A stretch of 23,868 bases of DNA from a virus. The first letter of the stretch is position 1. Each line of letters starts with the position of its first letter. The DNA lies in the IMG/VR virus record IMGVR_UViG_3300020005_000026, positions 1 through 23,868 of that record; one strand, given 5' to 3'. Made by a program: the position numbers and the translations under genes. This document shows, in pieces, positions 2,964 through 20,571 of the stretch. The notes under the pieces were generated by a model, which saw only the letters and a list, made by a program, of their open reading frames with translations, was not told the DNA's origin and did no database searches.

Positions 2964-5900
2964 GTGGACATAACTACACTTGGCATCGGTCTTGACTCGC
3001 GTCAAGTTGACGACGGGAGAAGGGCGCTCGATGACTTTTCGAAGTCTGCTGAGAAAGCAGAGAAGGCCGCTGAAGGTGTTGGCAAAGGCGCGAAGAAGGG
3101 TGCCAGCGATGTAAAGAGTTTTGAAGATCAAATGACTGCGGCGTCGGTCAAGGGTGCTCTTTTTGCTGACGCTATTCAGAAGGGTGTGCAGATAGCAATT
3201 GATGCCGTCAAGCAACTTTATGCATTGATGTCAGAGGCGGGTGATTACGCAGACCTTGCCGATATGACAGGCGCATCTGCGGTCAACATTGCGAAGCTCC
3301 AGACGGCGGCAGATGTGGCCGGTATATCCATGCAAAGCATGGCAGGCCACATGAGTGCGATGACGCGGATACTCAAGGCGACCGATGAAGAAGGCGACAA
3401 AGCAGCGCGAGCGTTGGCGCGCATCAACATCAAGTACGAAGACTTCATAAAGCTGGACCCGGCAGAACGCGTTGCGGCGCTCGGTGTTGCAATGGGCAAG
3501 TACGCAGATGGCGTTGAAAAGACAGAGATATTGCAGGCTGTGGCTGGCCGAGGTGCTGCTGAACTAGGTAAGGCAATAAAGGTTCTCGCAGATGAGACAG
3601 CGTTCGCAACGCGACTCAATAATGAAATGATTCAGTCGGTCGATGGCTTGAATGACGCTAACGCTGAATTCACATCGAAGTCGCGACAATACATTCAAGC
3701 GATACTAGTTGGCACTGTACCTGCGACCGAGGCATTCAAGCTCGTGATTAAAGAGACGACTGCATCCATGTTTGGGATGGGCGATGCGGCTGATGCACTC
3801 GGTGCGAATCAAGGGGCGAACAGTTTTTCTGAAGCTGTCGGGCACGGGCTTGCTGGTGCAATCACTGCTTTTCAGTTGATCTACCGGGTTGTTGAAAGTG
3901 TCATCAATGCTGTAGTGTCGTTAATTAAAGTCATCATCGACTTGGGTACGATGGACTTTTCAGCGGCATACAAGACCGTAGAAGATTTGGGCGAGAAGAT
4001 AAAATCTATTTGGTCCGAAGATTTTGCCGCGATCTCTTTTGGCAACACGCAAGGCTTCAAGGGAAGTTTTCAAAAGAAGCTCGATCTGATGTCCAAGGCT
4101 GCGCGAGAAGCAGCGGCAATGGCAGCGGGCGGTGAAGGTTCAGAAGAGGCGAAGGAAAGAATACGTCAGGGGCAAACCGACAAAGAAATAGCGGACGCCA
4201 AGAAGAAGGCAGATGAACTCGCAAAGATTGCGAAGAAGGCTGCCGAAGATGCAATCAAGCTAGCGCAAAAACAAGCCGATGATTTCGACAAGATCGTCGG
4301 CGGCGGCACTGCGAAGGCTGCTGGATACAACGATGACTTCATCGACTCGATGAAGATCATTAATGCCGAAAGCAAGAAGCGCAACTACACCGAAGAGCAG
4401 TACCGCACTATTGTTGATTCGCTGCTGAAGCAGCAACCGTTCTATGTGCAACAGCTCAAAGAGCAAGCTGAAGCGATGGAGAAGTACGTCGAGCTTGAGC
4501 AAAAGATGATCGACAAGGCGGCAACAGATGATGCCGCTACGCTAAAGGCATCAGCAGAAGCGGCGACGGCGGCAGAAACAGAACTCAAAAACTTCGGCAA
4601 GCTGAAGAGCGAGATTGCCGAGACGACGTTGCTGCGATTGAAAGATACGCTTGAGATGGTCAAGGCCGATCCGGTTAGCCGTGCCTTTTATCAGCAGCAA
4701 ATTTCGGATCAACAAAGAGTCGTGAATGCGTTGAAGGGCACAGAGTTGCTTGAGGCGCATAAGAAGTTAGCGGATGAAGCGAAGAAGGAATACGACAAAG
4801 CCTGGGAGCAGGTCGGACAATCGTTTGCCGATCAACTCATGCAAGGCGGTCGCTCTGCATCCGACTACATCAAGAATCTATTCAGGACGATGATTCTTCG
4901 TCCGACAGTCATGGCCGCATTTTCTGGCGGCGGTAGCGGCGGCGGTGCTGGCGGTGGCGGCATCAACATGGGCAACGCGACAAGCATGTACGGGATGTAC
5001 AACGCCTACAGCAGCGGCATGGGCTTGTCAGGGATGGCGGGCGGCGCAGGGGTCGGTGGCGCGGTGGGCAATATTGCGGCGGGCTACGCCGGGGCTACAG
5101 GCGGCGGCTTGGCGTTGTCAGGGGTGGGCGCGGCCGGACCCATCATGTCGACCAGCGGGGCGGCTGGCGCGGCCTTTGAGGGCTACATGGCCTCGACGGG
5201 CATCATGGCTGCGGAAGGCGGCACCCTGGCCGGTGCAGCCGGTGCCGGTGCAGCCGGTGGTGCCGGTGCGGGCGCGAGTGCTGCGCTCGCTGCGGTGCCG
5301 GTTGCCGGGTGGGTCGCGCTCGCGGCGATTGCCGCTTATGCAGCGTACAAGAAGTGGGGCAAGCACAAAGGCGGGCCAAAGGTCGAAGGCTCGTTCGGCT
5401 TGGATAGTGGCACGTTGATCGGCGCATACGGTAATCAGATGGACACCAACGCCGCACGTGCGGTGTCGGATTTGAACTCTCAGTATCGGCGCATGGCGAC
5501 GTTGCTTGGATCGTCGAATCAGAATATGCAATTCGGCGTTGGCTACTCGATGGACCCGGCTGGCACAGCGCCGTCGATGGTGCACATTCGCAGCGAGGTC
5601 AGCGAGTCGGTGAACAGAGAAGCCGGACGCACACCGGAAGAATTGGCGAAGGCGTTGGCCGAAGGATCGGCAACGGTGATGGTCGAAGCGTTGCGCAACT
5701 CTGGCATGGAGCCGCAGATGCTTGCCTACTTTGACAAGATCACTGTGGGCATGACGGATCAAGCGAAGCTCGGGGCATTCGAGCAAGTCGCGGCTGTCGG
5801 ACAATACTGGAAAGCAATGCAAGCGATGGGCGGCAACATGAAAGAGCTTCAGGGCATCTCGCTTGAAGCCGCAGTTGCGCTCGCAGAACTCTCCGGCGGT

Positions 5901-7877: not shown

Positions 7878-8102
7878 GTGGAAGCAACTTGCGTCGCGGC
7901 GGTGTTCATCGAGTCGCGCGCGCCGACGAGCGTCATCTATCGCAACGTTGAGAACGGCGTTAGATGGCGCATCGACGGCGTGTGCTGTCAGTGCGGTGAA
8001 TGCTGGGCAGGGATGACGAATCCCAAGCCGGTACTCGATTGCCCGGTCATGCCCACGATCAGCAAGTTCCCTAGCTGCACGCTGAGCGGCGAGTATCTCT
8101 AA
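7878..8102 (+). CDS. Small Cys-rich protein, possible metal or Fe-S tail-tip component
   Basis: 74 residues from GTG 7878, 4 bases after the previous stop; the ribosome binding site is weak. Seven cysteines lie at 5, 36, 37, 39, 42, 55 and 67, with the cluster CCQCGEC at 36-42. Its stop shares one base with the hub start (TAATG at 8100-8104), implying coupled translation and perhaps fixed stoichiometry. Lambda gpL carries an Fe-S cluster and gene transfer agents have an Fe-S hub protein encoded at the same locus, so a metal-binding tip role is plausible, but this is inference from position and Cys content; the sequence is too short for a family call. Confidence 0.6.
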   Translation: MEATCVAAVFIESRAPTSVIYRNVENGVRWRIDGVCCQCGECWAGMTNPKPVLDCPVMPTISKFPSCTLSGEYL

Positions 8103-11100
8103 TGGCACTCACGTTCAAACTCTTCTTCGGTGACGGTGTACCTGTAGCGCCACCGACAGGCGGGTCGAAGCACCCGAACCTGCCGCGTGCTGCGCCTGCT
8201 AAATACTTTGAAGCCGCAGCCGCCAGTGTTGAGAAAGCCATCACGACAACGGCTAAGGGCGGCACGCAGGTTGTTATCACTGCGCCGAATGACACCGACG
8301 ACGCAACGAAGGCGCAGTCATTCTATTTCTCCCGATTCAGTTCACCCTATCTTGCTGCGCAAACTATTCCGCAGCAGGAATTGACGGTCACATTCTGGGC
8401 CGGTCAGACGAGCGGTTCGGGGGCGACGCACGCTTGTCCTGTCATTTATATCTGGCGTCCAAATACGCAACAGGTTGTCGGCTATATCTGGGATGGCCGC
8501 AACAACCTGGGACCGACAGCGAACAAGAACGTCGAGTGGTTTGCTTCTGGCAACGTCGTCAATGAGTTCGACTTCTTCTCGCTCAATGCAACGGCGACGA
8601 CGGCGTTTACTGGTTTAACAGCAGCGAACTCGTTATCGAGTCCTGTCACTTGCGAAAACGGCGACGTGCTTGTCGTCGAGATGTGGGGCAATGTCTATCC
8701 ATATCAGGATATGTCCGGCGCGTGCCCACGCTCTATCGGCATCAATACAGTTAGCTCGTGGATCAACTTCACGAATGCGCTGACGTGGGGCACAGCGGCA
8801 CCTACTGGCGCGCAGACGATTAGCGTCGCGGACCCGTTGACCTATCCGCCGATGGGAATGGGCGCGGCGACAGACGTCGCTGTGCTCAGTAGCGTTGCGT
8901 CAGGCTTGCTCTTCTCGCCAATGCTCGGTGCCGATGCGACATCGACCGTGGGGCGTGCGCCGGTGTTGACCAGTAGCGTCGCGAATGCGGCCAGCTATTC
9001 GTACACGCCGTCAACGAACACGACGGCGACGGTGCTGAGGATCACCAACAGCGTCCCATCGCCTGCGGCAACGTATGCGGCGTCGGTGAAGAGCGCATCG
9101 GACAACATCGAGATCAGGGCTGGACCGCTGAACTTTGCCCCGATGGTGATGGGCGACGCGACATCGACAATTCAGATCGGTGTTGTCAATATCTCAAGCA
9201 TCGCGTCGGCTGCATCCTATTCGGTATCGACGACAACACCGACAACGGATGTTTTTCAAGCGTACAGCGTACCGACCCCAGCGGCATCTTATGCGACGGC
9301 TGCGGCTAATGCGACATCATCGGTAACGCGTGTCTACGCAAGCATTGCGGATGCGGCCAGCTTCGCAACGCAGACCGGTTCCTTCCCTGCAACGTCGAGC
9401 GTAAACGTCACCAGTGCTGCGTCGCTGGCGACGTTTGCGTTATTAGCGGCATCAGGCGAGCCGTACTTCAGCGGCGTCACCACCTTCTATTGCATCGGTG
9501 ATGCATCGAACATCACGATCACCGGCGGGCGATACGCGAACGTCACCTATCTGCCGCGCGGTCAGCATAAGGACGCAGCGAATGCCGGTATCGACGGTGT
9601 GCTGCATGATTGGTGGGGCGGCACCGGCAACGTCGTCAACCGCACGATCTCGTCATTTGCGAACACGACACCGCAGTCGTTCTACTTCGGCCGGTTCGTG
9701 TCGCGTCCACTCGCTGCGCAAACCATCCAGGCGCAGAATTGGAATTATGCAGCGATTGTTGGCGAGGGCACGACTGCATCAAAGACGTTCTTCGCGCCGG
9801 TCATGTATGTGTGGCGTCCGTCGACGGGCACGGTTGTCGGGCACATCTTTGATGGCTCGTATGTCGGCACGAATGAATGGCCCGCGACGCCTGCCACGGC
9901 AACGCGCAACATGGCCGGTGCAGCGGTCACGGTGCAAGACGGCGACATGCTGGTCGTCGAAGCCTGGGCAGTTGCTCAGCACACGACAGCCGCAGCGAAC
10001 ACGCAGACATGGCGGATCACGGACAAGACATCACCGATCTATTCGCAGTACAAAGTTCTGTACTTGCCGCACTCGCCGCTGTGGTTTACTTCGTTCATAG
10101 CGGGCACAGCGCCGAGTGCCGGAAAGAATGCGCCGTCGAACCTGCCGTTTGCGGTGACAGGCAGTGCGACGACAATCGCGAACGAGTATCTATGGTCGGA
10201 GGTTGCGCCTAACGACGTGACGCCACCGCAGACTGCGTTGAGTGTCGCTGCGAAGAACAACCTAGCTGCACCGCAGTCGTACTACATTGGCCGGTTCTCT
10301 TCGCTGCCGCTTGCAGCGCAAACGATTCCCGCGCAGGTCTGGGAATATGAAGTCTCTATCGGCGCGGGCAGCGTCAACTCGCATTCGTATTTCTGGCCGG
10401 TCATCTATGTGTATCGGCCATCGACGGGCACGGTCGTAAAACAGATATTTTCCGATCCAGCGGCGCAAGCTGGCATCGAGTGGCGTGCGCCGAATGATGA
10501 TCCACGACTAGAGCAACGCTTCGCAGGCGCGTCGGCAAACGTTCTCGATAATGACATACTTGTCGTCGAGATCTGGGGCGCGGGTCAGCAGACGACAACA
10601 GGCGGGCTTTACTTGCAGCGCATGTGGATGAATGCGCGCAACTCGCGCATCGTCTCGCCGTACAAACTGCAATACTACACCGGGCTGAAGCAGACGATCA
10701 CGTCGACGGCAGATCCGGCAACCTACGATCTTGCTGAAGCCGATGCGACCAGCGCCTACACGCTCGGGCGCGTCGACGTGCCATCGGAAGCGTCGCCAGC
10801 GACGTACGCCCAGGCGGCAACGGCAACGACGGCGTCGAGCGTCCAGGCCTTCAGCGTCGCCCAGGCGCTGACCTACCCGCTGATGGGGCTGGCTGCGGCC
10901 ACGTCGACCATTGCTGGGCTTAGCAACGCAGGCGCGGGCTCGTGGGCGCTTGGCGGGGCACTAGGCTATGGCAGCATTGGCAGGGTCTCGAACGGCCAGC
11001 CTGGGGCATTCTCGCAAGGCGTTTCCCAGGCCAGCGCCGGTGTTGCCACGACTGCCGCGCTTGCCAGCTATGCCTATAGCCCGACAGCAACGACGACCGT

Positions 11101-14100
11101 CTCGATTGGCCGCATCATCCCATCGACGGCGAATGCGGCCGGTTATGCATACACACCGGCGACGGTCACCGCCGATTTTGTTGCGCTCATTTCGTCGACC
11201 GTAGCGATTGGGTACAGCGGCAATTATGCGCCGACGACGAACACGATCTTTGTTCAGCCGATCTCGCAAGTGTCGGTTGCTTTGCCCGCGACCTATACAG
11301 TCGACGCAAAGAACACAACGGAATCGCTAGGGTTAGTCTATACGTCCGTTGCCTCGTCAACGTCGTTCAGTACAAACGCAGCGAGTGCATACGCTTATCA
11401 AGACCGCGTCGTTAGCACGTTGCCTGCTGCCTCCTATGGTTGGTCAGGCGCATCGGCATCGGCATCGCTAAGCAGAAGCTCTGTTGCGCTGAACGCAACG
11501 TACAGTTATTCACCGCAGAACACATTTGAAGGACAAGGGTTCGTCTACGCGTCCGATGCCTCGTCTGCATCGTTCAACCTTAACGCGATCAACGCCTATG
11601 CATATCAGGCACGCGTCACTAACGCGTTGCCCGCTTCCTATGGCTGGTCCGGCGCAGCGACGTCGCTAAGCCGGACATCGATTGCGCTCAATGTCCTTTA
11701 CGACTTCTCGCCGCAGTCGACGACGGTGGCGCTTGGCCGCATCATTCCGTCAAGCGCAGATTCGACATCGTTCCTTCTCCGATTGATCGATGCTTATGCG
11801 TCGCTCAATCTTGTTACCAATGCAGGCAGTCGCTCGTACGGGTGGTCGGGTGCATCGGCAACAAGTGGTCAGATTCGCGTCGTCGCTTCGGATGCAACTG
11901 GAGCGACCTACGGCTACACCGCAAAGGACGTGACGGCTGGCTTTACGCTGATCACGCCAAGTGATGCAGCGAAGGCAACCTACGCGTCGAATGCGCGCGA
12001 TGCATACGGCTATGCGGATCGTTCGTCGGTTGCGTCGTCATTGCCGTTTGCCGGTGTTAGCCTGCCAGCAACGACGACAACCAGCTTCGCGCGGCTCTCG
12101 ATGGCGCTGCCGGTGGAGTTCATTGTCTCCACGCCGACGACGACTTCGGTCATCAACACGCGGGTCATCAGCGACGCGTCGTCGTTTAGCTTCAAGACCA
12201 CCGGGCAGGTGGCCGTCAGCGGTGCCAACACAAACTCGGTTGCCGCGAGCACGACGTACGCTGCGACGGTGACGGTTGGGACGACCGCCGTCCCGTCAAA
12301 GAATTCGATAGCGTCTGGGACAAGCTATTACGCGACGACGCCGGATGCATGGTCCGGCCGCGTCACGTTCTCCGTTGCGCTGTCGCGGACATTTAGCCTC
12401 TCAGCGCCGGACACGGTCTCGTACATCCCAGGCAAGCAGACATCGACAGCGCTGCCCGCAACCTATAGCCTATCCACGACGGCGCAGACTGCGCATCGCT
12501 ATGGCTACGTCTCGCAAGCAGGCGCGGCACGGTATCTTCTGGAGTGCGTGCCTTGGCCTGCGTTTGACTTTGTCCCAAGCATCGTTAAGCCGCCGATAGT
12601 CTACCCGACGTACACGCCGCGAGCGCCGATTAGTGATGCGCAGTTTGCGACGTGGCTGGAAGACGAGCGCGCAGTTCGTGTCGTGTTGATCGAGACACGA
12701 TGCGTAGAGCCGATCACCAGCAACACGGAGCTTGTCTACTTTGCGTCGTCCGGCTTCGTCACAAAGATTGAAGATGGCGCGTCTGTTTATTATTCACCGC
12801 TGATGCGCGGCGGGCTTGAGTTTGCACAAACCATCGACCTCAATTTAAGCGGCAATCAATCGTATGGTGATATCGAGCTAGACAATTCCACCGGCGACCT
12901 TGATTGGATGTTCGACCGCATTTGGCTGTACAAAGAATTCAAAGCCTATGTCGGTGATGCGTCTTGGCCGCGCAGGGACTTCAGGCAAATATTCGACGGC
13001 AATATTGAAGACGTTGACAGCAGCCAGCGCGACACCGTGAACGTGCGCTTGCGCGATAAGTTCTTCCGGCTCGACATACCATTGCACGAAGACAAAGTGG
13101 GCGGCACCACAACCAACGCTGATCGGCTCTTGCCGTTCTCGGTTGGTGAATGTCATAACGTCACGCCGGTGTTGACCGATCCGAAACAGCTCTATTACGC
13201 GTATCACAACCACGCAGCCGAAGGCGTGTTCGAGGTTCGCGATAACGGCATCCCTGTCGATTACATATTCATGACGGGTGCGCCGATGTCGTTCAAGTTG
13301 TCGAAGCAGCCGTATGGCCGGATCACTTGCAGCTTGCAGGGCGACAAACTTGGCGGCGGGCATCCTGGCACTGGCTACGTGAACACCGTGGCTCCTATCA
13401 TCAGGCGTTTGATGATGGAGCACGGCACAGAGGCGGTGAACCGTTTCACGTCGGCAGATATTGATACCGACAACTTCACAGCATTTGATATTGCCAACAA
13501 ATATCCGGTCGGCTTATATACGACAGAGCGTATGACTGTGCTCGAAGCATGTCAAACAATCGCTTCGTCGATTGGTGCGCGTCTGACGATGACTGCGCTT
13601 GGCAAGGCGCAACTCGTGAAGCTGCAACTGCCGCCATCAACGGAATCGAGAACACTTGTCTATAACGGCGACTTCACTTCTGGGACAGATGGTTGGTCCT
13701 ATAGCGGCACCAATGGCGGCATCGTGCCTGATCCTGCTTTTCCATTTGCGACATCCATCAATCTTAACGGTGCTGGCGTTTGGAATATACCGGGTCAGTT
13801 TGTGTTCTTCTCGCATCAGGCCTCTGGCCCGACAAATCCAGCCTACTATTATGAGTACGCGAGTGCTCCAATTATCGTCGAGCCCGGTAAGCAATACACC
13901 GTGAGTGCATATACAGGCGCGCACAGATGCCGGGTTGAAGTTTGCTTCTGGGAATACACACAGAACGGCACGTTGCTTGGCTCGTCACCTTTGGCCGCTT
14001 CTGCGTCTAACGATGCACAGGGACAAGGCGGGCCTTATCCAACGGACTATAGTCTCTATACGCGAGTCACTGACACGGCAATAACGAGATCGAACACGTA

Positions 14101-14689
14101 CTATATTCGCGTGATGCTGCGCAAGTGGGATACCAAACCCGGCAATGTTGATTCGTGGATGTTCGTGACGGGTGTGAAGGTCGAAAGCGCCAGCACCGCT
14201 GCCGCAGCGCCCATCGTCGTTACTGAGTCGGACATGGTATTGGGCTCGATGCATATCGCGGATCGTCTGCCATTGGTGCCCGGTGGCGTCCTGGGCTATT
14301 GCAAGAACTGGACGGTGCAAGAAGACACTGCACAGGGTGTCCCTGAAGATCATAAGTCGATGTATGCGCGGGAGTGGCTCACGATTGCCATCGACGAGCA
14401 ACTTATGCGCTCGAAGTACGGCATACCGGGACAACCGGAACAAGAGAACTCGCTGTTGTTGGATAGACAGAGTGCTTTGACCGAATGCGGTCGTCGAGTG
14501 AATCTACGTTCTTCACAGCGGCATGTTTATGAGTTCGTTGGATTTGCTAATTTGATGTTCACGCCAGTGGGTGCGCCGATGACTGTCTTTCATCGTCGGT
14601 TTGGTTTGTCCGCAGGCAAGACGGGACAAGTCATTTCGGTCGCTGTAAACTGGCTGTCGTCCCAGGTCACAATAAAGGTGTTGATCTAA
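8102..14689 (+). CDS. Giant composite tail hub / host-interaction protein
   Basis: 2195 residues; start at ATG 8102 overlaps the previous stop. Order by residue: about 1-245, 470-660 and 670-865 are three copies of one beta-rich module, each with S(F/Y)Y(F/I)xRF, LAAQTI, P(V/M)(I/M)Y(I/V)(W/Y)RP and D(V/M/I)LVVE(M/A/I)W motifs. About 245-460 and 870-1478 are arrays of ~24-residue Ser/Ala/Thr repeats. About 1478-1850 and 2036-2195 look like the conserved tail-hub part of proteobacterial siphoviruses (WLEDERAVRVVLIE, YYSPLMRGGLEF, YGDIEL, RQIFDGNIE, VRLRDKFFRLD). A CBM4/9-like insertion at about 1851-2035 starts with NGDFTSGTDGW. The hub part probably closes the tube tip; the N-terminal modules probably project and bind host glycans. 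The hub call rests on motif memory and position. Confidence 0.78.
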   Translation: MALTFKLFFGDGVPVAPPTGGSKHPNLPRAAPAKYFEAAAASVEKAITTTAKGGTQVVITAPNDTDDATKAQSFYFSRFSSPYLAAQTIPQQELTVTFWAGQTSGSGATHACPVIYIWRPNTQQVVGYIWDGRNNLGPTANKNVEWFASGNVVNEFDFFSLNATATTAFTGLTAANSLSSPVTCENGDVLVVEMWGNVYPYQDMSGACPRSIGINTVSSWINFTNALTWGTAAPTGAQTISVADPLTYPPMGMGAATDVAVLSSVASGLLFSPMLGADATSTVGRAPVLTSSVANAASYSYTPSTNTTATVLRITNSVPSPAATYAASVKSASDNIEIRAGPLNFAPMVMGDATSTIQIGVVNISSIASAASYSVSTTTPTTDVFQAYSVPTPAASYATAAANATSSVTRVYASIADAASFATQTGSFPATSSVNVTSAASLATFALLAASGEPYFSGVTTFYCIGDASNITITGGRYANVTYLPRGQHKDAANAGIDGVLHDWWGGTGNVVNRTISSFANTTPQSFYFGRFVSRPLAAQTIQAQNWNYAAIVGEGTTASKTFFAPVMYVWRPSTGTVVGHIFDGSYVGTNEWPATPATATRNMAGAAVTVQDGDMLVVEAWAVAQHTTAAANTQTWRITDKTSPIYSQYKVLYLPHSPLWFTSFIAGTAPSAGKNAPSNLPFAVTGSATTIANEYLWSEVAPNDVTPPQTALSVAAKNNLAAPQSYYIGRFSSLPLAAQTIPAQVWEYEVSIGAGSVNSHSYFWPVIYVYRPSTGTVVKQIFSDPAAQAGIEWRAPNDDPRLEQRFAGASANVLDNDILVVEIWGAGQQTTTGGLYLQRMWMNARNSRIVSPYKLQYYTGLKQTITSTADPATYDLAEADATSAYTLGRVDVPSEASPATYAQAATATTASSVQAFSVAQALTYPLMGLAAATSTIAGLSNAGAGSWALGGALGYGSIGRVSNGQPGAFSQGVSQASAGVATTAALASYAYSPTATTTVSIGRIIPSTANAAGYAYTPATVTADFVALISSTVAIGYSGNYAPTTNTIFVQPISQVSVALPATYTVDAKNTTESLGLVYTSVASSTSFSTNAASAYAYQDRVVSTLPAASYGWSGASASASLSRSSVALNATYSYSPQNTFEGQGFVYASDASSASFNLNAINAYAYQARVTNALPASYGWSGAATSLSRTSIALNVLYDFSPQSTTVALGRIIPSSADSTSFLLRLIDAYASLNLVTNAGSRSYGWSGASATSGQIRVVASDATGATYGYTAKDVTAGFTLITPSDAAKATYASNARDAYGYADRSSVASSLPFAGVSLPATTTTSFARLSMALPVEFIVSTPTTTSVINTRVISDASSFSFKTTGQVAVSGANTNSVAASTTYAATVTVGTTAVPSKNSIASGTSYYATTPDAWSGRVTFSVALSRTFSLSAPDTVSYIPGKQTSTALPATYSLSTTAQTAHRYGYVSQAGAARYLLECVPWPAFDFVPSIVKPPIVYPTYTPRAPISDAQFATWLEDERAVRVVLIETRCVEPITSNTELVYFASSGFVTKIEDGASVYYSPLMRGGLEFAQTIDLNLSGNQSYGDIELDNSTGDLDWMFDRIWLYKEFKAYVGDASWPRRDFRQIFDGNIEDVDSSQRDTVNVRLRDKFFRLDIPLHEDKVGGTTTNADRLLPFSVGECHNVTPVLTDPKQLYYAYHNHAAEGVFEVRDNGIPVDYIFMTGAPMSFKLSKQPYGRITCSLQGDKLGGGHPGTGYVNTVAPIIRRLMMEHGTEAVNRFTSADIDTDNFTAFDIANKYPVGLYTTERMTVLEACQTIASSIGARLTMTALGKAQLVKLQLPPSTESRTLVYNGDFTSGTDGWSYSGTNGGIVPDPAFPFATSINLNGAGVWNIPGQFVFFSHQASGPTNPAYYYEYASAPIIVEPGKQYTVSAYTGAHRCRVEVCFWEYTQNGTLLGSSPLAASASNDAQGQGGPYPTDYSLYTRVTDTAITRSNTYYIRVMLRKWDTKPGNVDSWMFVTGVKVESASTAAAAPIVVTESDMVLGSMHIADRLPLVPGGVLGYCKNWTVQEDTAQGVPEDHKSMYAREWLTIAIDEQLMRSKYGIPGQPEQENSLLLDRQSALTECGRRVNLRSSQRHVYEFVGFANLMFTPVGAPMTVFHRRFGLSAGKTGQVISVAVNWLSSQVTIKVLI
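11342..11953 (+). repeat. Three higher-order repeats (69, 66, 69 residues) in the hub repeat array
   Basis: Within the ~24-residue repeat array, three consecutive blocks at 11342-11548, 11549-11746 and 11747-11953 each hold three subrepeats in the same order: one with (S/T)SF and a following AYAY-like motif, one with SYGWSGA, and one with A(T/L)Y followed by a (S/T)xQ/TxK loop. The third block is the most diverged. GCATCG also occurs three times in tandem at 11450-11467. All blocks are in frame and belong to the coding sequence. Confidence 0.78.
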
Positions 14690-16473: not shown

Positions 16474-18474
16474 ATGCCGCGCATCTTTGCACAAAGAACG
16501 ATCAGGCTTGCGCCGACCGGCATTCCGGTAAACGCACCGTCGGTTAACACGGTGCCAGTAGCGGCGCAGACAACGCCGCAAGGCACGGCGAAGCAATTCT
16601 CCGAGAGCGGCGGCAACGTCGTGAAGATTGCGGACGTCGATACGCCGATCATTACGACCACGGTTAGCTGCTCGGTCGGCACGGTCGAAGTGATCCCGAA
16701 TCCAGCAACGTTCATCTCATATAACAACACGACGCGCGTCATTGTCTCTGGCTCGGTTGCCAATGTGAATCGCGCGCTGAACGGGATGTACTATCGCCCA
16801 CCGCCTGCGACAGACGTGACGGCCGTTATTACGCTGCGCACTACGGACGGACTCAACGTCGACACTGACAGCTTCAACGTGACCGTTGGCATCGGGACGC
16901 CACCGCCCCCAACGCCGCAGCCGCCTGTCAATACTGTGACAAGTGCGAAGACGACAGCCTATCAAACGGCACTCAATCTGGCGAGCGCAAACATCAGCGT
17001 CTACGATGCCGACACGCCATCACTGACGACGACGCTGACGATGACAGGCGGTGCGTGCGGTGTGTCCGCTGCTGGCGGCGCTTCAGTGACCGGCAACAAT
17101 ACGGGGCTTGTCACGATCTCTGGCACGCAAGCGCAAATCAACGCAGCACTTGCAACGCTGGTCTATACACCAAGTGCAGGCTTCACGGGTGCCGGACAAA
17201 TTGCAATGTCGACATCAGATGGTTCGCTAGTGGACTACGACACCATTGCAATCACTGTTCAGGCTCCTGTCGGTGCGCCGGTCAACACGGTGCCAGTGCA
17301 ACGGTCAATGTCGATGAATGGCACGCAGACATTCTCCGTTGCTAATGGCTTTCCGATCTCTGTTGCCGATCCGAATTCAACGTCAGTGCAAGTCAACATG
17401 AGTTGCAATAACGGCAAGCTCAAGGCAGTCGTCACGGGCGCGGCTAACCTTGCTGATGGTTTTCCGCCGAAGATCAACTATGCGTTCTGGACTGCCTACG
17501 ATACGACATCGCTCTTGAATGTGAGTCAGAATTTCAACGTCATTGGATTGTTCAACTTTCGCAACGGCGGCAATGGCCTGGGCGGCGGCGCAGCGTCATG
17601 GCCGTGGGGTGCCGGTACGCCTTCACCGGGCGACGTAGCATCAGTGGTTGCACGCGGGCAAAGAGTGGTCGTCATCATAGGTGGCTACGGGAATACGTTC
17701 TTTTATCAGACGCAGCAAGAGTCGGACGCCTTGCTCGCTTCGCTGACGCCATTCATCAACGGGCTCGGCGGCGCAGCGGCTATCTCCGGTGTTGAATTCA
17801 ACAATTGGACAGGTGATCCTGTCGGTGATTACGCGACGCAGTTGATCTACATCGCAGGAAAGTTGAAGACGCAGTATGGCTCTAACTTCTCGATCTCTTT
17901 CCCGGTGAAGAATAACTCCACGGCTAACCGCAACCTGATGTTGGCGATGCACAATGCAGGCTGTCTGACGTGGGTGTCGCCGCAGTACACCGACAACGCT
18001 GCCTACAAGACGGCTGGCGTTCCGAAGGGTCAGATTGATACGTGGCTTGCTACGCCATTGCCTACGACAAAGGTGTTGATGGGACTCTCGTCTAATTACA
18101 ACACGACGACGGACTCGCTGACGATAGCAGAGTGCACGCGTGAATGGGATGCGGCCTATGCTGCGAATCCTACGCTGCGCGGCGTAAGCTGCTATAACGC
18201 GCACCTCGATCTTACGGCAACCAGTCCTAATCAATTCGCAAATACGTTCAAGGCCAGATTCGACACCGCCATGCAGACCGGCGCGGGCATCACCGGCAAT
18301 GATACGAACTCGCTTGCCATCTCTGGCACGCTTGCCCAGGTCAACGCTGCACTCGATGGCCTGACCTACAAGCCAAATAGCGCCTTCACTGGCGGCGACA
18401 CGATCACTATCACAACGAGTGACGGCACCTTGTCAGATACCGACACAATTGGCGTGATGGTCATAAACGCGTGA
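16474..18474 (+). CDS. Cadherin-like repeat protein with embedded degenerate GH18 domain
   Basis: 666 residues; AAGGG at 16463-16467 precedes ATG 16474. Repeat 1 (about 23-137) and repeat 2 (about 149-265) are Ig/cadherin-like, each opening with PxVNTV and ending with TTDG/TSDG, DTDSF/DYDTI and a final strand. Repeat 3 opens at 268, is broken at about 326, and resumes at about 603 to the C-terminus. The insert (about 334-597) has glycoside hydrolase family 18 barrel features: INYAFW strand, VVVIIGG at 398-404 and a following GVEFNNW at 439-445. The family needs DGxDxDxE; here the aspartates are changed and the catalytic glutamate position is W445, so hydrolysis is unlikely and a lectin-like role is inferred. 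Probably a tail fibre or tip adhesin recognising N-acetylglucosamine-type sugars. Confidence 0.7.
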   Translation: MPRIFAQRTIRLAPTGIPVNAPSVNTVPVAAQTTPQGTAKQFSESGGNVVKIADVDTPIITTTVSCSVGTVEVIPNPATFISYNNTTRVIVSGSVANVNRALNGMYYRPPPATDVTAVITLRTTDGLNVDTDSFNVTVGIGTPPPPTPQPPVNTVTSAKTTAYQTALNLASANISVYDADTPSLTTTLTMTGGACGVSAAGGASVTGNNTGLVTISGTQAQINAALATLVYTPSAGFTGAGQIAMSTSDGSLVDYDTIAITVQAPVGAPVNTVPVQRSMSMNGTQTFSVANGFPISVADPNSTSVQVNMSCNNGKLKAVVTGAANLADGFPPKINYAFWTAYDTTSLLNVSQNFNVIGLFNFRNGGNGLGGGAASWPWGAGTPSPGDVASVVARGQRVVVIIGGYGNTFFYQTQQESDALLASLTPFINGLGGAAAISGVEFNNWTGDPVGDYATQLIYIAGKLKTQYGSNFSISFPVKNNSTANRNLMLAMHNAGCLTWVSPQYTDNAAYKTAGVPKGQIDTWLATPLPTTKVLMGLSSNYNTTTDSLTIAECTREWDAAYAANPTLRGVSCYNAHLDLTATSPNQFANTFKARFDTAMQTGAGITGNDTNSLAISGTLAQVNAALDGLTYKPNSAFTGGDTITITTSDGTLSDTDTIGVMVINA

Positions 18475-18812
18475 TGATGTGGGACGACATTCAACAATGG
18501 ATACTCCGCTTCGCCGGTGTTGCAGGTGCGCTCGTGTCGATGCGATTCGTCAATGGTACGTTTTTTGAGCGCGTGCTGATGGTGATTGGTGGGGCGTTCT
18601 TTTCTTTCTACGCTACGGAGTGGGTTGCGCAATGGCTCGCGCTGCCGCAGGGGCTTACAGGCTTCCTCCTGGGCCTGTTCGGCATGTCCGTGCTTAGCCG
18701 GGTGTGGGAATGGGTGCAGTCGACAAACGCCGTGTCGGGCTTTCTGGACGCTTGGCTGCGCAAGCCGCCCCCGCCAACACCGCCAGCACCGCCAAAGGAT
18801 GACAAGAAATGA
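18474..18812 (+). CDS. Putative holin (three membrane segments)
   Basis: 112 residues from ATG 18474, which overlaps the previous TGA by one base; GTG 18471 and ATG 18477 are possible alternatives. Three hydrophobic segments lie at about residues 10-28, 33-55 and 60-79, followed by a Pro-rich then Lys/Asp-rich tail (PPAPPKDDKK), a layout common in holins. Holins form inner-membrane lesions that release endolysin at the lysis time. Position two genes before a lambda R-like endolysin that lacks a signal peptide supports this. The family is not identifiable by a motif, so holin versus antiholin versus other membrane protein is open. Confidence 0.6.
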   Translation: MMWDDIQQWILRFAGVAGALVSMRFVNGTFFERVLMVIGGAFFSFYATEWVAQWLALPQGLTGFLLGLFGMSVLSRVWEWVQSTNAVSGFLDAWLRKPPPPTPPAPPKDDKK

Positions 18813-19108
18813 TCGACATCTCTTTCTTATCTTCGGCCTGCTGGTTCTTCGTCGGAGTCTCGTCCCTCGTTGCGAGCTTCGCTGGGTACGTGCGCAAGAC
18901 CGTAATGGAATGCGTCGCGCTGGCCGGTGTTAGCCTGGGCGCGTTCTCGCGGTCCTACTATGTTTTCATCCGGCAAGAGACGGACCCTGATGCGTTATGG
19001 ATATCCATTGCGCTCGCGATCTATTGCCTTGCCATGTGGTATAAACTTATGTGGGTCGTTCCGCATCGTCCAGACTACAAGCCGCCGAGAAAATCGCGCT
19101 ATTACTGA
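18809..19108 (+). CDS. Small membrane protein, possible second holin or antiholin
   Basis: 99 residues; start overlaps the preceding stop by 4 bases (ATGA), and its own stop overlaps the endolysin ATG (TGATG). Hydrophobic segments at about 5-25, 33-50 and 62-82, with a basic Pro/Lys/Arg C-terminus. It has no lipobox, so it is not an obvious spanin lipoprotein. Coupled placement between putative holin and endolysin suggests a lysis-timing partner (antiholin or second holin). No sequence family recognised. Confidence 0.55.
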   Translation: MIDISFLSSACWFFVGVSSLVASFAGYVRKTVMECVALAGVSLGAFSRSYYVFIRQETDPDALWISIALAIYCLAMWYKLMWVVPHRPDYKPPRKSRYY

Positions 19109-20346
19109 TGGCAGACATCACGCTCACGGACTATATCGTCAAGCGCAACGTGCGGGCGTTCCTGTGGGCACTTCGCTATGGCGAGGGCACGCAGGGCGAA
19201 GAGGGATATCGCACGCTATTCGGCGGAAAGCTGTTCCTGGGGGCCGATGGCATCTATAGCACGTTCGATGACTTTGCCGATCATCCCCGCACGCGCATCA
19301 CGGTCACCCTAAAGAACGGCAAGCGGCTCACGTCGACTGCGGCCGGTGCCTACCAAATTCTCGAACGCACCTGGGACGGCGTCTGCAATCAATACGGCTT
19401 CTTGAACTTCGAACCGCCGACGCAAGACCTTGCCGCGATAGCCTTGATCGCTGGCCGCAAAGCACTCGAGGACATTGTCGAAGGCCGTATCCATATTGCG
19501 GTGTTGAAGTGCAACAAAGAATGGGCATCGCTTCCCGGCTCGCCCTATGGTCAGCCGGTCATTACGCTGGAGGAATTCAGGCGCGAGTATGAGGAGGCGG
19601 GCGGACTGTTTATGAACGAAGACACCGCACGCGATCCGCCGATGGTGCCGGTCGTGGCGCAGGCTAAACTACCGCACATCGCCAGCAAGACAACCGAGAT
19701 CGCTCGCGGCAGCACGGACCTCGGCGTCGAATTCCAACAGGAGAAAGCTATGCCAATACCTGCCGTCGTCGCGGCGCTGTTGCCCAGCCTGATTCAGCTA
19801 GTGCCGCAGCTGACGAAGATATTTGGATCGGGCTCTGAAGTCTCGCAGCGCAATATAGCAGCGGCCGAAGCCGTGTTCACTGTTGCCAAAGATGCCATCG
19901 GCGCAAAGAACGAACAAGAGGTGATCGAAGCTATAAAGGCCGACCCCGTCCAGGCGACGGCGGTGAAGACGGCCATCGAGAAGAACTACCTCCAGATTCA
20001 AGAGGCTGGCGGCGGCGGTATAGCGGCGGCACGCGACTATAGTATTGCCGTTGCACAGATGCGGACACCGGAAGGCCAGCCGCTATCGCTTTTGACGCAG
20101 CCCGCGTTCGTCATCTCCGTCGTCATGCTCGGGCTGGTCGTCATGATGGTGCTGGTCGTCCTTTTCCCTTGGGAAATATTCAGGGCGAACGGCGGACAAA
20201 TTTACACCGATGAAGTACGATTGATCGTGGTGACGGCTATCATTGGTTCCCTTTCGACCATCGGGGCCTTTTGGCTCGGGTCGTCCTTTGCAAGTCGACA
20301 GCCACCTCCCGCGCTTGGCACGCGCTCACGTTCAACTGACCTTTAA
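19108..20346 (+). CDS. Endolysin (lambda R-like lytic transglycosylase) fused to a membrane domain
   Basis: 412 residues from ATG 19108 (TGATG overlap); the earlier GTG 19051 lies within the upstream gene and would add an unrelated 19 residues. Residues about 12-165 match lambda gpR in order: RAFLWALRYGEGT with catalytic E26, FADHPR at 56-61, STAAGAYQ at 76-83, and EWASLPGSPYGQ at 138-149. This domain cleaves murein glycan strands. Lambda R ends near 158 residues, but here the frame continues through a linker (about 166-214) into a second part with an AGGGG motif and two membrane segments at about 333-354 and 371-394. That part resembles a separate holin-like or membrane protein usually encoded alone after endolysins. 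No N-terminal signal is seen, so release would need a holin unless the fusion tethers the enzyme. Confidence 0.85.
   Translation: MADITLTDYIVKRNVRAFLWALRYGEGTQGEEGYRTLFGGKLFLGADGIYSTFDDFADHPRTRITVTLKNGKRLTSTAAGAYQILERTWDGVCNQYGFLNFEPPTQDLAAIALIAGRKALEDIVEGRIHIAVLKCNKEWASLPGSPYGQPVITLEEFRREYEEAGGLFMNEDTARDPPMVPVVAQAKLPHIASKTTEIARGSTDLGVEFQQEKAMPIPAVVAALLPSLIQLVPQLTKIFGSGSEVSQRNIAAAEAVFTVAKDAIGAKNEQEVIEAIKADPVQATAVKTAIEKNYLQIQEAGGGGIAAARDYSIAVAQMRTPEGQPLSLLTQPAFVISVVMLGLVVMMVLVVLFPWEIFRANGGQIYTDEVRLIVVTAIIGSLSTIGAFWLGSSFASRQPPPALGTRSRSTDL
19739..19744 (+). promoter_or_regulatory. Internal ribosome binding site in the endolysin fusion gene
   Basis: AGGAGA at 19739-19744 lies 5 bases before the in-frame ATG at 19750, which is exactly where the membrane domain begins. 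It is a better match than the sites preceding many genes of this operon, suggesting that a shorter product is also made. Confidence 0.6.
19750..20346 (+). CDS. Internal-start membrane protein nested in the endolysin gene
   Basis: 198 residues, in frame with the endolysin and sharing its stop. The N-terminus MPIPAVVAALLPSLIQ is an amphipathic or hydrophobic helix; residues 28-85 are helical and charged, AGGGG lies at 86-90, and membrane segments at about 119-140 and 157-180 precede a short basic tail. I recall free-standing proteins of this layout encoded after phage endolysins and sometimes called holin-like. Whether this one is made alone, only as the fusion, or both cannot be settled from sequence. 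Its expression is inferred from the strong internal ribosome binding site. Confidence 0.5.
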   Translation: MPIPAVVAALLPSLIQLVPQLTKIFGSGSEVSQRNIAAAEAVFTVAKDAIGAKNEQEVIEAIKADPVQATAVKTAIEKNYLQIQEAGGGGIAAARDYSIAVAQMRTPEGQPLSLLTQPAFVISVVMLGLVVMMVLVVLFPWEIFRANGGQIYTDEVRLIVVTAIIGSLSTIGAFWLGSSFASRQPPPALGTRSRSTDL

Positions 20347-20355
20347 GGAGATCAC

Positions 20356-20571
20356 ATGAAACTCGAATGCACGCAAGCGTCCACCGGCGTATGGTCCTGG
20401 CGCTTCAAGAGCGATAACGGCGAGACCACCATCGCTGAAGGCGTGAAGTTCTTTGAGTCGAAGGCCGAAGCGCAGAAGGCAGTCGGCGCGTTCGCCGCAA
20501 GCGTTGGCATCAAGGCAAACGCCATCAGCTATGTCCCTCTCAACCCGGAGAAAGAAGAAGAGGAAAAGTAG
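20356..20571 (+). CDS. DUF1508/YegP-like small protein
   Basis: 71 residues; AAGGAG at 20345-20350, overlapping the previous stop, gives an ideal start at ATG 20356. The pattern WSWRFKSDNGE, then a short turn and FESKAEAQKAV, fits the DUF1508 (YegP-type) fold of a beta hairpin plus helix, whose function is unknown. The C-terminus is a Lys/Glu run (EKEEEEK). It is the last gene of the + strand operon and ends 3 bases from the stop of a convergent gene. Confidence 0.6.
   Translation: MKLECTQASTGVWSWRFKSDNGETTIAEGVKFFESKAEAQKAVGAFAASVGIKANAISYVPLNPEKEEEEK

Follow-up and report, generated by a model that had tools for sequence, protein, structure and literature searches.

A lambda R-type endolysin fused in frame to a TeaA-type holin domain, with a conserved internal start at the join

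Holins and endolysins are normally separate proteins, and their separation sets the timing of lysis. The window analyzed here, a 23,868-nucleotide stretch of viral DNA (IMG/VR record IMGVR_UViG_3300020005_000026), contains a gene in which an endolysin appears to continue without interruption into a membrane protein, and it raises the question of whether such a fusion is real, what its membrane part is, and whether the gene specifies one product or two. The relevant features are as follows.

18471-18812, + strand: 113-aa membrane protein, first gene of the lysis block, matching holin family phrog_2359 (E 1.7e-13)
18809-19108, + strand: 99-aa membrane protein (TM prediction), its stop overlapping the start of the fusion as TGATG
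19108-20346, + strand: fused endolysin-holin gene, 412 aa, a single open frame
19108-19617, + strand: lambda R-type lytic transglycosylase domain, aa 1-170, by phrog_90 match and 1am7 alignment, with Glu26 in SEGT/GEGT
19618-19749, + strand: variable linker, aa 171-214, with indels, high divergence and pLDDT mostly <50
19739-19744, + strand: internal Shine-Dalgarno-like AGGAGA, duplex dG -7.4
19747-19803, + strand: hydrophobic helix at the start of the membrane domain, aa 214-232 (TM prediction; helix also in the AF2 model)
19750-20343, + strand: TeaA-type holin domain (phrog_1544, hhalign), aa 215-412, equivalent to a predicted free 198-aa product from ATG 19750
20110-20166, + strand: predicted TM helix, aa 335-353
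20221-20277, + strand: predicted TM helix, aa 372-390
20356-20571, + strand: 71-aa soluble protein directly after the fusion, weak match to phrog_1422

The frame from 19108 to 20346 contains no internal stops, in agreement with the initial annotation, which had described an endolysin running without a stop into a membrane protein. That annotation had also proposed a complete lambda R-like catalytic domain, and here too our comparisons concur: the N-terminal domain matched the phrog_90 endolysin family with E 1.1e-38, its profile matched lambda lysozyme 1am7 with E 3.5e-31 over query positions 15-169, and the lysozyme structure 3d3d matched the profile with E 6.2e-31. The SEGT/GEGT motif aligned with that of 1am7, and E26 of this catalytic motif is retained in the window and invariant in relatives. 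By homology over the catalytic domain, the window enzyme is a lambda R-type endolysin. Two other classes were considered for it and set aside. A SAR endolysin was ruled out by TM prediction, in which an N-terminal hydrophobic segment is absent, and the class of Enc34 ORF39 and M4Lys was rejected on finding that the enzyme belongs to phrog_90, not phrog_873, with no notable BLASTP similarity. Searches of Pfam and NCBIfam with the fusion returned nothing useful, and an AF2 model of the full fusion (mean pLDDT 47.6) was too poor for use.

A sequencing error that deleted a stop, around 19600-19750, would be the simplest source of such a frame. We scanned IMG/VR twice and recovered 18 full-length relatives (16 of them non-identical to the window), together with two cut by contig ends. 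These full-length relatives were 80-100% identical to the window, and the join was open in all 18; with four divergent lineages described below, which are likewise all fused, they rule out the error. The catalytic and membrane domains are strongly conserved among the close relatives, and the linker between them is not: divergence at first and second codon positions was 0.30 and 0.24 in the linker, versus about 0.09-0.11 and 0.04-0.08 in the domains, and the linker carries indels within the window clade. In relatives of 51-60 kb, neither this endolysin nor this membrane domain had a match outside the fusion, and searches there for a further endolysin of the lambda R or GH108-like (phrog_315) type found none; the fusion must therefore be the enzyme, unless an endolysin of another family was missed. 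Two scans of genome contigs yielded no relatives, and no record of the phage collection searched matched the fusion in full. One relative, L016 (IMGVR_UViG_3300043499_000045, 59275 bases), is a much longer contig whose fusion is identical to that of the window; it probably derives from this virus or a near-identical one and can serve for reading the remainder of the genome.

As to the membrane part, all 14 aligned membrane domains matched phrog_1544, with a best E of 6.6e-6 (5e-4 for the window copy). This family, annotated as of unknown function in PHROGs, includes TeaA of Vibrio phage ICP1 (E 1.7e-53). TeaA was identified as a holin by experiment: it reduces the proton motive force, responds to dinitrophenol as a trigger, and alone can lyse V. 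cholerae; it was assigned to GTA_holin_3TM, PF11351 (PMC7182436). Direct BLASTP of the window copy with TeaA gave 26% over 91 aa, and the homology of this copy to TeaA is, by sequence comparison, remote. When the fused domains were compared by hhalign with free TeaA-like proteins, the result was 98.8% and E 4.9e-17 over 169 columns, and in this profile comparison M215 of the fusion aligned with Met1 of the free proteins. AF2 of the membrane domain alone yielded a moderate model (pLDDT 62.8), whose top viral match, at probability 0.98 but E 0.27, was Vibrio phage VHML ORF20, another of the free TeaA-like proteins. By these homologies the fused membrane part is a TeaA-type holin domain, more than an anchor, and this fused copy would presumably have holin activity. 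A lysis function is indicated for phrog_1544, which PHROGs leaves without one. The description of the domain as two-pass holds for the two strong TM segments predicted near its C-terminal end, and falls slightly short in that an extra hydrophobic helix lies at aa 214-232. One free phrog_1544 member, that of phage PBR31, carries the label 'putative spanin'; we do not favor a spanin identity, given the C-terminal position of the TM helices and the presence of TeaA in the same family.

The membrane part had been said to occur elsewhere as a free-standing gene, and free copies of this TeaA-like family are indeed common in phages. In PBR31, VP882, PVA1 and MAR, an endolysin gene is followed, immediately or across a 1-nt overlap, by a free TeaA-like gene (in MAR, a homologue of VHML ORF20 lies directly behind the endolysin), and in two Vibrio phages the free gene lies behind an M15-type peptidase gene. 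ICP1 is an exception, with teaA placed after the antiholin gene arrA. Inspection of 75 IMG/VR proteins related to that of PBR31 revealed no fusion; in 46 of the 75 the free gene is preceded by an ORF with a GH108-like EGGY motif, and in others the preceding ORFs resemble GH19, GH24 or M15 enzymes by eye, the GH labels being ones that we presume from motifs and general knowledge. Free TeaA-like genes usually come right after an endolysin gene, and these endolysins belong to several families. Ten free-gene loci in which the frame was open far upstream were examined as possible fusions and rejected, since the upstream residues contain no catalytic domain; in most of the ten they come from out-of-frame reading of a GH108-like gene. 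Often the start of the free gene overlaps the stop of the endolysin gene, whose end includes an AAAGGAG-like Shine-Dalgarno sequence, so that the join in the fusion resembles an ordinary junction of this kind minus the stop.

Both AGGAGA and ATG 19750 are present at the join, as first reported, and the question is whether they are more than a chance occurrence. We found divergent fusions in four further lineages, designated L050, L065, L081 and L051 (see below), and each of the five lineages has a start codon at the homologous position: ATG in four, and in L081 a GTG that is paired with a stronger Shine-Dalgarno sequence. The preceding Shine-Dalgarno-like sequences are CAGGAG in the window clade (with variants CGGGAG and CAGGGA), GCGGAG in L050, AAGGAG in L065, AAGGAA in L051 and AGGAGG in L081. 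In each of the five genes, the internal start ranks among the top 2-10% of codon positions by duplex energy, and Fisher's combination over the lineages gave p about 3e-4, a rough figure. Within the window clade, the wobble bases of the Shine-Dalgarno codons CAG and GAG are invariant, and only 14 of 89 comparable codons are. Shuffling of synonymous codons with the amino acids held fixed was not significant for single genes (P 0.08-0.67), since the residues Q-E-K already favor a Shine-Dalgarno sequence. The upstream start at 19108 lacks such a sequence (dG +1.9, vs -7.4 at 19750) and overlaps the preceding gene's stop as TGATG, and is therefore probably translationally coupled. Persistence of the start codon and Shine-Dalgarno sequence in five divergent lineages makes it likely that the fused gene specifies two products.

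The four further fusions came from wider scans. Their C-terminal domains are 49% (L050), 34% (L065), 32% (L081) and 37% (L051) identical to that of the window. L050, L065 and L081 have lambda R-type enzymes. In L051 (3542-4549), the TeaA-type domain is fused to an enzyme of phrog_873, the family of Enc34 ORF39 and M4Lys, and has its own internal ATG and Shine-Dalgarno sequence; either two endolysin types have acquired the membrane module, or one enzyme has replaced another. When 35 domains were placed in a tree, all nine from fusions grouped together with 100/99 support, in 100% of bootstrap trees; the scan seeds were drawn from the fused group, and free members of this clade may have been missed. 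Its branches are long. With the strong support for one clade, this shows that the fusion is old, and the data fit a single origin with an enzyme swap. These results bear on the proposal of the initial annotation that the gene arose by loss of one stop codon and could make both a membrane-anchored endolysin and a free membrane protein. The second element is favored by the internal start kept in five lineages, but loss of a stop as a recent event is not supported, the fusion being old. Moreover, in several free relatives the holin start at the endolysin stop is in another frame, so that loss of a single stop would by itself be insufficient to fuse the genes. The linker is unrecognizable between lineages, yet has remained open and in frame (rough chance estimate 5e-4). 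Separate genes evidently work in many other phages, and the linker nevertheless stays in frame here; retaining the fusion is therefore probably of benefit to these phages, and the same probably holds for the internal start.

Several known systems share single features with this gene. TeaA of ICP1 is homologous over the whole domain, with the same start position and C-terminal TM helices, but it is a free gene beside antiholin ArrA, whereas the domain described here is fused behind an endolysin and only remotely similar. Lambda R belongs to the same catalytic family (1am7), but in lambda the enzyme and holin S are separate genes. Enc34 ORF39 and M4Lys of Salmonella phage BSPM4, both of the Casjensviridae, likewise have an N-terminal enzyme and a C-terminal two-helix membrane part, Gram-negative hosts and a small membrane gene upstream. 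They differ in their catalytic family, phrog_873, in a short membrane tail with no TeaA homology, and in the lack of a strong internal Shine-Dalgarno sequence near that tail; L051 shares their type of enzyme, but with a TeaA-type domain. C-terminally anchored endolysins are therefore already known (PMC8943055, PMC7143992), and the route by which the Enc34 type reaches the wall is an open question (PMC8943055), on which the fusion bears for Enc34 and M4Lys alike. A natural fusion of holin and endolysin, of the TpeE family, occurs in Clostridium sporogenes (PMC9527704); there the order is reversed, with an unrelated holin of BhlA type in first position, the setting is Gram-positive, and the gene is not known to have an internal start. 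Lys170, CTP1L, LysIME-EF1 and LysP7951 (PMC9430671) have an in-frame internal start at the domain border that yields a C-terminal product, but these are from Gram-positive phages and the short product is a cell-wall-binding domain, where here it is a predicted holin. Anchored endolysins, a holin-endolysin fusion and internal-start endolysin genes are thus known separately; an endolysin with a TeaA-type holin and a conserved free-holin start was not found in the open-licence literature searched.

On balance, we think it probable that this old fusion gives rise to two proteins, an endolysin-holin tethered to the membrane and a holin on its own, and that the gene is a compact lysis device. Translation from 19108 would yield the 412-aa protein, in which a cytoplasmic lytic transglycosylase is tethered through a flexible linker to the C-terminal TeaA-type holin domain, and translation from ATG 19750, with its good Shine-Dalgarno sequence, would yield the free 198-aa holin. 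The long and short forms may co-assemble in the inner membrane, the catalytic domain presumably staying in the cytoplasm until triggering; holin triggering would carry the tethered enzymes to the lesion, or through it, where they would cut the wall. In lambda, two nested starts produce long and short holin forms, S107 and S105, the former only two residues longer, and the long form of the fusion may also slow triggering as S107 does. Against this interpretation, a separate phrog_2359 holin lies upstream in the window clade and could be the main holin instead of the fused domain. A bolder version, in which the single gene is a self-timed lysis machine whose free holin is accompanied by a full-length protein acting as both brake and wall cutter, each lesion bringing its own tethered endolysin, seems to us rather unlikely. 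Being old and stable, including a homologue of a proven holin and keeping a second start, the fusion offers a direct test of whether a holin stays functional with its endolysin attached.

Three other explanations merit comparison with the two-product device. Possibly only the fusion matters, the protein being an anchored endolysin like Enc34 ORF39 or M4Lys, with the start a leftover or a by-product of Q-E-K-x-M and the phrog_2359 protein the true holin or pinholin. We are doubtful of this, although those anchored endolysins act as full-length proteins, the phrog_2359 holin is conserved upstream and the synonymous shuffle was not significant, since five lineages whose linkers are unrelated all keep the start codon (a GTG in one of them) and the Shine-Dalgarno sequence, Enc34 and M4Lys lack a strong internal Shine-Dalgarno sequence near their tails, and the membrane part corresponds to an entire TeaA-type holin instead of a short tail. 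Alternatively, the short product may be the working holin and the long one mainly an antiholin that delays triggering, with tethered wall cutting secondary. The long and short dual-start forms of lambda S have opposite effects, and the much stronger Shine-Dalgarno sequence at the internal start would suit such an arrangement; high conservation of the catalytic domain, including its motif, and the failure to find another lambda R-type or GH108-like (phrog_315) endolysin in the 51-60 kb relatives make it very unlikely. The least probable of the explanations is that the fusion is a precursor whose linker is cut by a protease to free both parts: in its favor, the linker is long, variable and probably disordered, but it has no conserved cleavage motif, and a precursor would have no need of a conserved internal start.

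The setting of the gene is also conserved. All 18 relatives retain the 113-aa and 99-aa membrane genes and the 71-aa gene together as a block; the 99-aa protein had no PHROG match. Counting the two membrane proteins of 18471-19108 and the fused domain, there may be three holin-like proteins in the cassette, which could form a holin/antiholin set. The window also contains late-region ORFs of 2195 aa (8102-14689) and 666 aa (16474-18474), for the latter of which PHROG and Pfam gave no notable match. The DNA polymerase is nearest (about 49%) to those of phages of Variovorax, Stenotrophomonas and Pseudomonas and one of Microcystis, from which a Gram-negative host is likely. In three of the other fused lineages, genes neighboring the fusion (L081, about 4131-4532; L065, 3749-4183; L051, 3177-3545) specify a single TM helix and, after it, a coiled-coil-like stretch, and are possible candidates for inner-membrane spanins or holins.
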